A program made the translations under genes and the position numbers. Below are positions 28,441 through 33,716 of a stretch of DNA of 64,000 nt, one piece after another (within the stretch, counting starts at the first letter, position 1; every line of letters starts with the position of its first letter). The notes beneath the pieces are model-generated. The model saw only the letters and a program-made list of their open reading frames with translations. It searched no databases and had not been told where the DNA came from. Origin of the DNA: Bryobacter aggregatus MPL3 (GTDB lineage: Bacteria > Acidobacteriota > Terriglobia > Bryobacterales > Bryobacteraceae); NCBI RefSeq assembly GCF_000702445.1, contig NZ_JNIF01000003.1, positions 744,001 through 808,000 on the forward strand, given 5' to 3'.

Positions 28441-30066
28441 ATGAATTTCAGTGGATACGAACTCCAAATCTTCGTCAGTGTCCTGATCGTGCTGGGATGC
28501 GCCTTTGTGGCGTTGCTTGTCGACTACCTGAAGGGCAGTAATGAAAAGCTGCGGGAAAGTCACGTTGAGCTCCTGGCGCGTCAGGACATTGCGGCCAGCC
28601 AGCCAGCCGGCGAGACCTCAGCGATTCTCAAGGCGCTTTCGGATCAGACCTCGGCGCTGCGGGCGATCATCAACCGGCCGATCCAGGTGACAACAGCCGC
28701 GCCGGCACCCGCCTCTCTCTCTACTTTTCCAGTGAGTAGCATCCCCAGTCCGAAACGCCAATTCGTGGCCAATGCAGCACCGGAACGGGAAAAGGTGAAA
28801 GTCGCCAGGATCCCGGAGACGCGTGTGGCCGCCGCTGCGGAGCCTGAAGCCACGCTGCCCACGGTAGCAGCGGAACCAGAAGTGGCTCCTGCGCCCCCTG
28901 AAATTCTTGTCGCACCAGCACTGCCCCAGGCCGAAGAGGTTCTGCCCCCGAACGTGATCCGCATCCGGCTCATGCCCGATTTGAATCGCCGGGAAACAAA
29001 AGCGGCGCCAGTCGAGGCAGTGGAGCCCGTCGAGGTTGCCGAAGAAACAGTTGCGCTCGAACCGGAGATGGAGCCGGAGACTCCCTCTATTGCAGAAGAA
29101 GTTGTAGCAGTAGCCGAAAGTCCGCTGGTTGTCGCTCCCGAGCCCGCAGAGATCGTCGCCCAGAAAACTCTGGAAGCAGAACTGACAGAAGCAGAACCGG
29201 TGCTGGAAGAAGTGCAAATCGAAGCCATTCTTCCGGAAGAGGAAATGGCGCCGGTCGCGCTCGAGGCAGAGGAGTCCAGCACGAATGGGACTGCGACCGA
29301 TACGCCAGTGGTCGCAGCGGTCGAGACCGAAACCCATGAGGCCGAGGCGCTTAAAACACCAGACTTTGATCAATTCCTTGAGGAGTTGGTCGCCGAATTT
29401 GCGCCCCATTCTCATTTCTACAGCGAGGCCCCAAGCGCGGAATCGCCTCGCCTGCCTTATGCCTTTGAGCCCACCCCACTGACTTCAATGTCAGCCTTGC
29501 CGATTCTGCCCCAGCTGAACCTCCACCCGGACGGTGAACTCCTGCTCAATCACGAGGCGGAATCAAATCTCGAAGAGTTCATGCCCAATCTGGTTGTGCC
29601 TTCTGGCATTCATCCCGTGGACGTCTTCTCCGGGCTCCTTGAGCGCAAGGAACTGCTCACCGGACTGGTTGTCTCAGTGGGCATCAATGAGTATGGGCAG
29701 CTTCACGAGAATCTGGGTGCGGCAGCCGATGAACTCCTGCGGAGCGTGGATGGCCTGATGACCGGGCTGGCGGGCATCGATGGATTCTGCACCCGGAAGA
29801 AGCCCGACGAGTTCGTCCTGATCTTCGCCAAGCTCTCAGGCTCCGCCGCACAGCGCCGCTTGAGCGAATTATCGGAGCAGCTCTGGGACTTCCAGTTGCG
29901 GAATCTCGGTACCTTCTCGGTGGTCTTCTCCTGGGGAGCCAAGGAAGTCCAGCGCGAAAACCTCAGCGAGGCAGTCGCCGCAGCCACCGAACGGATGAAG
30001 GAGACCCAGTCTTCCCGTAAATCCGTTTCGATGGATCGCAGCCGCCGCCGGCGGGCCACCGCCTAG
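28441..30066 (+). CDS. Membrane-anchored acidic protein with degenerate GGDEF domain
   Basis: 541 residues. One N-terminal transmembrane helix (about 8-30) is followed by a short basic/helical stretch. Residues about 90-330 are a low-complexity Glu/Ala/Pro/Val-rich linker typical of a flexible spacer. The last ~150 residues look like a GGDEF fold in which the signature has become KKPDEF (PDEF at residues 455-458, bases 29803-29814). It is preceded by GFCTR and followed by [10 protein letters not shown] and a C-terminal segment [12 protein letters not shown] resembling the SIG region of diguanylate cyclases. Loss of both glycines argues against cyclase activity, so a c-di-GMP/GTP-binding or scaffold role is inferred. 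A basic C-terminus (RSRRRR) ends the protein. The assignment to GGDEF is by pattern only. Confidence 0.75.
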
Positions 30067-30955: not shown

Positions 30956-33673
30956 CTACTTCATCTCACCTTCGAGAGCTTCGAGCTCTCGAGCCGCATC
31001 GACGAATTTACCTTGTCCCATCAGTTCCCGGTAGCGACGCATCCGGGAGCGTACCTTCTCCAGCCGGGGATCGCTGCCAGCCGGTGGGTTGTTCGTTGTC
31101 ACCGGCGCGGCAGCAGGGCTGCTGCTGGGAGCAGACGGTGTCCCCCGCCCGCCCAACTGCGCGAGAGCCTCCGCATAAGTGTCTCCATAACCAATGACAC
31201 TTCCCAGCCCGACGGCAACCTTCTTCATCTCAGGCATGGGCGCATTGGTCGCCTTGATATAGATCGGCTCCACATAGAGAAACTGGTCGTCCATGGGAAG
31301 CACCAGCATTTGCCCCTTGATCACCTTGCTCCCCTGCTGGTTCCAAAGCGACAGGTCCTTTGAGATGTTCTGGTCTTGATTGATACGGGCGGCAATCTGC
31401 ATCGGACCAAAGATCAGTTCCTGCTTCGAGAGCCGCAGGACTTCGATCTCCCCGAGACGGGTGCCATCGCAGCGGGCCGCCATCAAGCCAATCAGATTCT
31501 GTTTGTTGCGGGGCGTGAAGGTGGTGAGCAGAATAAATTCCGGCTTGGCTTCCCCGGGAAGAGTAGCCATCACATAAGTGGGGCGCACCTGTTCCGGACG
31601 TCCATCAATCCCTTCCGCCGTTTGCGCAAAATCCCAGGGATCTTCGCGATTGTAGAAAGCCTCCGGATCTTTCATGTGATAAGTACGGTACATCTCGGCC
31701 TGGACCCGGAAGAAAGTCTCCGGATAGCGAGCATGGGCACGCAGATCGGCAGGTAAAGTGCCTGCCGGCTGGAAGAGCTTCGGGAAGAGCTGCCGGTATG
31801 CGGCCAGAACAGGATCTTTCTCGTCCCAGGCATAGAGGTGGACGGAACCGTCATAGGCATCGACGGTAGCCTTGACGCTGTTACGCATGTAGTTCAAGCG
31901 GCCATATGGAGTGTTTACACTTCTCGAGTAAGGGTGCATCGAGTGCGCGGTGTAGCCATCGATCATCCAGATCAACCGCCCATCCTGGCTCACCACCAGA
32001 TACGGGTCTTCATCCCAGGAGACAAAAGAAGCAAGCGTATCCACCCGCTTGATCACATTGCGCCGAATCAGCATCCGGGAATCCGCAGTGAGATAGTCCG
32101 TCAGCAGGATGTTCCAATCCCCCTCCGCCACAGAAGCGGCAAAGCGCATCAGCAGTCCATCAATCGGAATCCCGCCCTGCCCCTGGTACTTACTGTGAAC
32201 GTTCTCGGTGCCAGAGGGGTAGTTGAACTCGGGCTGCGCCGTACGGACAAAGACCGGCTCATGCGTCGCCTCGCCATAGTACAACTCAGGGCGCGTCACC
32301 TTGGGAGCGGACGCAACGGCCACCAACGGCGCATCCTTGATCAGAAGCTCCGGCAGCCCATCGGGAGTGATGCCATTGGCGTCTGCCATGACCATGCCAT
32401 AGCCATGCGTGTAGATGAAATGAGGATTGATCCAGCGGCTCTGGGCATCGGGAAGCTGGCGAACATCCAATTCGCGCGGGCTGAGAAGAACCTGGTTCAA
32501 CTCTCCATCCGGCCCCGGATAGCGATCCACATCGGTGTCCGCAAAAACATAATAGGGCCGCAACGCCTGGATCTGGGTGATCGTGTCATGAAAGGCCTGC
32601 CAATCCCACAGACGAACATTATTGAGCAGCGCCTGGTGCTTGGCAGGCTCGAAACTGCCGCCAATGCGAGCCGGGAAGTCGCGCTCCGTCAGTTGGGAAC
32701 CGAGCCCAAAAGCAGAACGGGTCGCATCAATATGCTGCTCGATATAAGGTTTTTGCAAGGAAATCTCGTTCGGACGCACGCTGAGCGCATTCACGATCTT
32801 GGGCAACACGGCTCCAGCCGCATAGACAACCAGCACCAGAAGAACGGCCATCCCCAGGCGGCGAGCCAGCACCAGCAATGCGCCGATCACACACGCACCC
32901 ACCAGGGTCCAGACCAGCGGAAGCACAACCCGGATGTCAACATAATCCGCTCCCACAAGAAAGCCGTGGTCGGAGAACAACACATCATAACGGCCGAGCC
33001 AGGTCCGGGCGGCCAACAACAGGAAAAACAGCGCGATCACGACCCGTACGGATGGGCCGCGCAGGACATCGCCCAAATTGAGACCACTCAGATCGATCCC
33101 TTCTTGCGGATCCATTTGAGAGAAGCGCTCCCGCAGACTATCGAAGCGGCTAGTGAGCCAATAGATCACAAAGCCGACAATCAGAATTCCCTGGAGATAG
33201 CGAAGCAACATCTCGTAGAAGGGAAGCTGAAAGAAGTAAAAGCCAATCGGGTGGGAGAAGACCGGATCCCGCCAGGCATCGTTCGCCGAGGCCGTTGCTC
33301 CGTAAAAGCGGGCGACAGTCCAGTTATCGATCAACACCGCACCAAAGACCAGCGAAGCAATGAGCCCGGCGCCCAGTTTCCAGATGTCGCTTCCAGTCTG
33401 GAAGCGTGAGCGCGCCCGCAGATAGAGAATCCAGAAAATCGGGAAGACCAGCAGACCGGCGGCGAGATTCGGCAACCAGCCGTAGAGGATGGTCTGCCCC
33501 CAGGTCTCCGTCTGGCCCAGTTCGCGCCACCAGGCATAGTCAATCCAGGCACTGGCAATCGAACGGGCACTGGCTACAAGAATCAGGATCAGGATCACCC
33601 AACCACCCCATCCAAAACCTGGGAATCCAGGAGGTCGCGGTGGGTTCATTTCAATGACATCGGGGCGTGGCAT
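30956..33673 (-). CDS. UPF0182-family membrane protein
   Basis: 905 residues from ATG 33673, which has GGAGG 5 bases upstream; an in-frame ATG at 33648 is the alternative. The N-terminal ~320 residues contain about seven hydrophobic helices, beginning GWVILILILVASARSIAS. A long soluble, presumably extracytoplasmic region follows, with family-typical stretches around NPHFIYTHGYGM and PYGRLNYMRNSVKATVDAYD, and a final Pro/Ser-rich segment. UPF0182 proteins of this size are widespread in Actinobacteria, Acidobacteriota and Cyanobacteria; their function is unknown. It is divergent from the AsmA-like gene with only 43 bp between starts. Confidence 0.93.
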   Translation of the reverse strand: MPRPDVIEMNPPRPPGFPGFGWGGWVILILILVASARSIASAWIDYAWWRELGQTETWGQTILYGWLPNLAAGLLVFPIFWILYLRARSRFQTGSDIWKLGAGLIASLVFGAVLIDNWTVARFYGATASANDAWRDPVFSHPIGFYFFQLPFYEMLLRYLQGILIVGFVIYWLTSRFDSLRERFSQMDPQEGIDLSGLNLGDVLRGPSVRVVIALFFLLLAARTWLGRYDVLFSDHGFLVGADYVDIRVVLPLVWTLVGACVIGALLVLARRLGMAVLLVLVVYAAGAVLPKIVNALSVRPNEISLQKPYIEQHIDATRSAFGLGSQLTERDFPARIGGSFEPAKHQALLNNVRLWDWQAFHDTITQIQALRPYYVFADTDVDRYPGPDGELNQVLLSPRELDVRQLPDAQSRWINPHFIYTHGYGMVMADANGITPDGLPELLIKDAPLVAVASAPKVTRPELYYGEATHEPVFVRTAQPEFNYPSGTENVHSKYQGQGGIPIDGLLMRFAASVAEGDWNILLTDYLTADSRMLIRRNVIKRVDTLASFVSWDEDPYLVVSQDGRLIWMIDGYTAHSMHPYSRSVNTPYGRLNYMRNSVKATVDAYDGSVHLYAWDEKDPVLAAYRQLFPKLFQPAGTLPADLRAHARYPETFFRVQAEMYRTYHMKDPEAFYNREDPWDFAQTAEGIDGRPEQVRPTYVMATLPGEAKPEFILLTTFTPRNKQNLIGLMAARCDGTRLGEIEVLRLSKQELIFGPMQIAARINQDQNISKDLSLWNQQGSKVIKGQMLVLPMDDQFLYVEPIYIKATNAPMPEMKKVAVGLGSVIGYGDTYAEALAQLGGRGTPSAPSSSPAAAPVTTNNPPAGSDPRLEKVRSRMRRYRELMGQGKFVDAARELEALEGEMK

Positions 33674-33716
33674 GGCACCTCCACATTGACACATTCAGCC
33701 AGTACACTCGTGAGGT

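Follow-up and report, generated by a model that had tools for sequence, protein, structure and literature searches.

A membrane-tethered degenerate GGDEF protein of Bryobacter aggregatus MPL3 as a probable docking module

The window analyzed here is a stretch of 64,000 nucleotides from Bryobacter aggregatus MPL3 (contig NZ_JNIF01000003.1, positions 744,001 to 808,000 of the forward strand). The gene under study, an open reading frame at 28441-30066 (+), encodes 541 amino acids plus a stop codon, and its product carries a degenerate GGDEF domain on one membrane helix. The explanation that we favor, with moderate confidence, is a non-enzymatic inner-membrane tether that docks a partner protein by its GGDEF fold, has lost binding of cyclic di-GMP (c-di-GMP) in the genus of the window, and probably derives from a receptor of the CdgI or PelD kind. 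The coordinates and translation agree with those of an earlier note on this DNA, which had suggested a diguanylate-cyclase fold reused as a sensor or scaffold.

The C-terminal domain is, according to its predicted structure, of the diguanylate-cyclase (GGDEF) fold. GGDEF (PF00990) is the best Pfam family but stays under the cut-off of 23.8 bits, both for the whole protein (E 0.012, 15.9 bits) and for the domain alone (E 0.00096, 19.4 bits). Thirteen of 15 orthologous domains match Pfam GGDEF individually (E up to 1), the best at 3e-10, and a search of the PDB with a family profile brings up GGDEF chains (DosC 8.5e-7). The AlphaFold2 model of the domain, built from 15 sequences, has the GGDEF fold with a predicted local distance difference test score (pLDDT) of 88.1 and a predicted template modelling score (pTM) of 0.81. 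Its top PDB match is Caulobacter DgcB (Z 14.8, 136 residues, 2.4 A), with further matches to FimX (Z 14.6), DosC (14.2) and PleD (14.0), and Foldseek concurs on GGDEF structures (E in the 1e-5 range). Besides GGDEF, the whole protein gave only a chance malate synthase match in Pfam at E up to 10, and no EAL, DHH or GAF match. A chance resemblance to GGDEF is ruled out by the family profile, the fold and the tree described below. The earlier note had looked to structure prediction and profile matching for support. The former returned the GGDEF alpha/beta fold with AlphaFold2, Foldseek and the PDB matches, and the latter gave a signal above noise in the family profile and the 13 orthologues. The DEF and flanking hydrophobic strands that it saw as retained are real, judged by Pfam, the orthologue matches, the family profile and the substitution rates of the domain.

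The chemistry of a cyclase is gone from this fold. The key GGDEF residues were defined after PMC12943098 and counted in a family alignment of 62 degenerate domains and 9 canonical relatives. The first metal aspartate (PleD D327) is present in 9/9 canonical and 0/62 degenerate domains; its place is taken by G in 37, S in 20, A in 2, T in 2 and R in 1, and the window protein has G414. Asn335 is kept in none of the 62, the window protein having a different residue there. The glycine pair is lost in 61/62. The sole exception, L138 (from a Candidatus Sulfopaludibacter record), has the pair as GGTEW yet lacks the metal aspartate. Remnants of DEF persist, with D in 50 and E in 46 of the 62. The signature of the window protein reads KKPDEF (residues 453-458), as the earlier note described, and both glycines are indeed missing, but the damage is wider: the first metal aspartate and Asn335 are lost as well, and this genus has also lost the I-site RxxD. 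Conservation of a KxPDEF form across Bryobacterales was not found: among the relatives examined, KKP occurs in the window species only, congeners have [S/R][S/A]D-DEF, and the wider family has xxDEF, xxDEY or xxDQW.

The I-site has a more varied history. RxxD at canonical spacing is found in 30/62 family members, is altered in 11 (by an insertion of one residue or by Glu in the Asp place) and is lost in 21, including all seven of the window's genus, which lack both the R and the D; the window protein reads GIDG. On the tree, this trait must have changed six times or more. Among 165 columns compared without the genus, the I-site Asp ranks 18th and the Arg 38th in conservation, as against 147th for Asn335 and 118th and 80th for the two glycines. 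It is plausible from these sequences that the RxxD-bearing relatives bind c-di-GMP, and by analogy they may be receptors like CdgI or PelD. Since the first metal aspartate, Asn335 and the genus RxxD are all lost, sensing of c-di-GMP or guanosine triphosphate (GTP) is unlikely for the window protein. The reused fold, the lost chemistry and the retention of the domain stand from the earlier proposal, and scaffold is the better half of its "sensor or scaffold".

The domain has also gained residues. The derived signature LW(D/N)xQ is nearly invariant (outside the genus W in 54/54 and Q in 53/54), and R or A is the usual residue of the canonical relatives at the places of W482 and Q485, so that both are gained invariants of the family. 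The ratio of nonsynonymous to synonymous substitution rates (dN/dS), estimated by Nei-Gojobori for 15 orthologue pairs of which several are saturated at synonymous sites, spans 0-0.11 for the anchor and 0.03-0.24 for the domain, against 0.08-0.57 for the linker. With values mostly below 0.2, the anchor and domain are by this estimate under strong purifying selection, which argues against decay.

Orthologues in related genomes have the same three parts, namely a 49-residue anchor marked by VDYLKGxNExLRE, a linker and the degenerate domain, and nearly all family members have a single intact frame. In L149 (G016:C178) the gene is split, with the anchor and domain in separate frames, through a frameshift or an assembly error. 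The linker ranges from 83 to 1040 residues (median 429) and is net negative in 54/59 members. In the orthologue L105 (1205 amino acids) it is rich in tandem-like acidic repeats of the AEPVAEAVVEAVSDAPLAIETETAEQLFI type; as far as the sequence goes, this suggests that the arm grew by repeat expansion. The anchor profile has matches in 71/200 genomes of the window's taxonomic family; among 396 genomes drawn from the whole phylum, it matched the window's own and no other. A scan of about 85,000 species genomes gave 65 loci, with record titles such as Bryobacterales, Bryobacteraceae, Solibacter and Acidobacteria. The sole non-acidobacterial label among them belongs to L133 (VFZE01000070.1), a contig titled Acidimicrobiia, which has the usual neighbors and falls inside the acidobacterial clade; this record is probably mislabelled or misbinned. 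The tree unites all 62 degenerate domains with support 100/100 and places them next to the nine canonical RWGGDEF domains found in these bacteria, the long branches and small outgroup leaving the exact sister unsettled. The titles and abstract openings of the literature on Bryobacter or Solibacter with GGDEF or c-di-GMP mention no such protein. The family is conserved, restricted as sampled to one acidobacterial lineage, and apparently undescribed.

These results suggest how the protein may work. A helix in N-out/C-in orientation, together with the strongly conserved juxtamembrane helix, would anchor it in the inner membrane, and the disordered acidic arm, whose freely varying length would be of little matter, would extend the GGDEF-fold domain in the cytoplasm. 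The domain would make no c-di-GMP and, in the window's genus, also lacks the RxxD used for binding. Its surface, including the derived LWDFQLR helix, would dock another protein, perhaps another GGDEF domain. A precedent is the degenerate domain of CdgI, for which contacts of this sort are on record (PMC5635695). Since the structure is conserved, the ligand-binding residues are lost and a new stretch has become invariant, we infer that a docking module is the best explanation. Its descent would lead from an active cyclase through a c-di-GMP receptor stage, still seen in many relatives, to a ligand-free stage in the window's genus. We propose more tentatively that the family consists of tethers in transition, with the last stage, a ligand-free docking domain with a derived recognition helix, reached in the window's genus and also in some few further lineages, and with arm length nearly free. 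Three points weigh against a docking module. The D and E of DEF are mostly retained, a possible sign that some ligand binding persists; W482 and Q485 could be residues of the core rather than the surface; and the conserved neighborhood points to no binding partner of the C-terminal domain.

The protein could instead still be a c-di-GMP receptor, in which a rearranged I-site, or else the former active site, binds the ligand and contacts with a partner then change as in PelD or CdgI. The RxxD of the 30 relatives and the conservation ranks of its Asp and Arg outside the genus are consistent with this, as are the 7 GGDEF, 3 EAL and 4 PilZ domains over cut-off in the window genome and the fact that PelD and CdgI bind c-di-GMP at the I-site of a degenerate domain. 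However, all seven members of the genus lack both residues, and the DosC alignment shows no Arg at the position of PleD R390, so that even the relatives are without one usual contact. We regard such a receptor as rather improbable. Less probable again is a fold that binds GTP, ATP or another nucleotide, or has another activity; reported precedents are the GGDEF domains of CC_3396 and YybT (PMC12943098, PMC3974145). The mostly retained DE of DEF would suit this reading, but the loss of the first metal aspartate, Asn335 and both glycines does not, and neither does the lack of an EAL or DHH partner domain in Pfam.

Two further explanations have very little probability. The signature is eroded differently from member to member and one relative is split over two frames, as might be expected of a decaying gene without function. 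Such a pseudogene is contradicted by dN/dS far under 1 in the anchor and domain of the 15 pairs and by the newly conserved residues, and nearly all members have one intact frame. The least credible possibility is an active diguanylate cyclase with an odd signature. VCA0965 (AGDEF) and ECA3270 (SGDEF) are active despite an altered first glycine (PMC3974145), but here both glycines, the first metal aspartate and Asn335 are lost together.

The features of the gene are collected in Table 1. At the three codon positions, its GC content is 69/44/66%. The AlphaFold2 model of the whole protein, built from the window protein and six congeners, has one continuous helix over residues 5-52, which includes the membrane segment, and then a helix over 57-77. 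Residues 82 to about 378 are disordered except for a short helix (309-320) and a weak one (371-379); an alpha/beta domain follows at about 387-530 and then a disordered basic tail, the GGDEF-fold domain stopping 11 residues short of the C-terminus. The single membrane helix and basic tail of the earlier note were recovered, the last 16 residues having a charge of +6. D28, L30, K31, E35, L37 and R38 of the juxtamembrane helix are invariant in the family alignment. Across the family, there are no K or R residues before the membrane helix and 306 after it; the chain should therefore run N-out/C-in, with the GGDEF-fold domain in the cytoplasm. The composition described for the long Glu/Ala/Pro-rich acidic linker is correct (Glu makes up 20%, Ala 16% and Pro 13% of residues 128-383, whose net charge is -46), but about 128 residues of it (181-308) are a species-level expansion largely without a congener counterpart. 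Although most of the linker varies freely, PPNVIRIRL (169-177) and the helix 309-320 are retained in the genus alignment. Similar VVRIRV motifs are present in another clade. The earlier note overlooked both of these genus-conserved elements and the C-terminal RATA.

Table 1. Coordinates in the window of the tether gene and of the parts of its product
Feature	Position	Strand	Basis
Whole gene, membrane-tethered degenerate GGDEF protein	28441..30066	+	Open reading frame, translation, orthologues
Membrane helix, about residues 8-30, expected N-out/C-in	28462..28530	+	Hydrophobic stretch; AlphaFold2 helix 5-52; K/R distribution across family
Juxtamembrane helix, residues 28-52, family signature DxLKGxNExLRE	28522..28596	+	Alignment; dN/dS 0-0.11
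Second helix, residues 57-77	28609..28671	+	AlphaFold2
Predicted disordered linker, about residues 82-384, acidic from about 128 on	28684..29592	+	pLDDT mostly <50; composition
Linker motif PPNVIRIRL, residues 169-177, genus-conserved	28945..28971	+	Alignment
Acidic linker expansion, residues 181-308, largely without congener counterpart	28981..29364	+	Alignment; net charge -29
Short helix, residues 309-320, conserved in genus	29365..29400	+	Alignment; AlphaFold2
Predicted GGDEF-fold domain, residues 387-530	29599..30030	+	AlphaFold2 pLDDT 88, pTM 0.81; PDB matches
G414 at first metal Asp place (PleD D327)	29680..29682	+	Family alignment
GIDG, residues 445-448, at I-site RxxD place	29773..29784	+	Family alignment
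KKPDEF, residues 453-458, at GGDEF signature place	29797..29814	+	Sequence, family alignment
LWDFQLR, residues 481-487, derived family signature	29881..29901	+	W/Q conservation against canonical relatives
Basic disordered tail, residues 526-541, ending RATA	30016..30063	+	Net +6; RATA in 7/7 genus members

Directly upstream of the tether gene and on the same strand, 51/66 loci have a gene whose product is probably exported and weakly matches Gly-zipper, at a gap of about 100-260 bp. At the seven loci of the window's genus this place is taken instead by a zinc-type alcohol dehydrogenase, and the window genome has its Gly-zipper orthologue elsewhere (G000:C3:219354-220019, 62% identical) besides weaker matches. 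A functional pairing with the Gly-zipper gene was rejected. The adjacency is strong, but the gene is found in 194/200 genomes with or without the tether gene (71/200), which indicates a conserved place and not an obligate pair. Hidden diverged copies in genomes without a family match were also rejected, since the loci following the Gly-zipper gene in 20 such genomes, several on short contigs, gave no significant match to either profile. Downstream in the window, a gene for a UPF0182 membrane protein (PF03699, E 2e-225) at 30956-33694 (-) is directed towards the tether gene, an arrangement found at 36/66 loci, the window included. The nine canonical relatives (L045-L053) are not at the same genomic place, having no Gly-zipper, UPF0182 or dehydrogenase gene beside them; a conserved YmdB-like gene, named by sequence resemblance only, lies alongside in 9/9 loci.

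Degenerate GGDEF domains are common and occur in roughly one in four GGDEF proteins (PMC3974145); many have been accounted for as c-di-GMP receptors. A family that has lost the active site throughout, keeps the I-site in some branches and is under purifying selection forms a natural series, in which one can ask when the fold of a signalling enzyme quits nucleotide sensing for plain protein docking. The family also provides a role that can be put to the test for one gene from a soil lineage that has received little study, a gene that curated models miss because the score of its product in the window is under their cut-offs.

Several known systems resemble the window protein in part. CdgI of Escherichia coli is likewise a degenerate GGDEF protein with no EAL domain joined, and the available text of its source (PMC5635695) describes strong contacts of its domain with other GGDEF domains. 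In that text, its N-terminal part is common to DgcT and DgcX, and no long acidic arm like that of the window protein is described. PelD of P. aeruginosa and B. cereus is also membrane-bound, with its degenerate GGDEF domain in the cytoplasm (PMC7112168). However, PelD has a GAF domain, lies in the pel operon and binds c-di-GMP by RxxD and a further Arg, whereas the window protein has no GAF match, no pel genes among its conserved neighbors and no RxxD. YybT/GdpP and CC_3396 similarly put a highly degenerate GGDEF domain to a new role, but theirs is joined to partner enzymatic domains (EAL in CC_3396) and none was found here; proteins of the FimX, LapD and CsrD kind likewise have EAL in the same chain, which has no match in the window protein. 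The canonical L045-L053 are the closest intact relatives found and have FSWG and other landmarks in common with the family, but their catalytic residues and RxxD are intact in 9/9, and their N-terminus and genomic place are different. In architecture the window protein resembles ZipA-like tethers, which have one membrane helix, a long low-complexity arm and a cytoplasmic docking domain. It differs from them in that the docking fold would be GGDEF, and it has no Pfam match to ZipA and no cell-division link that was found.
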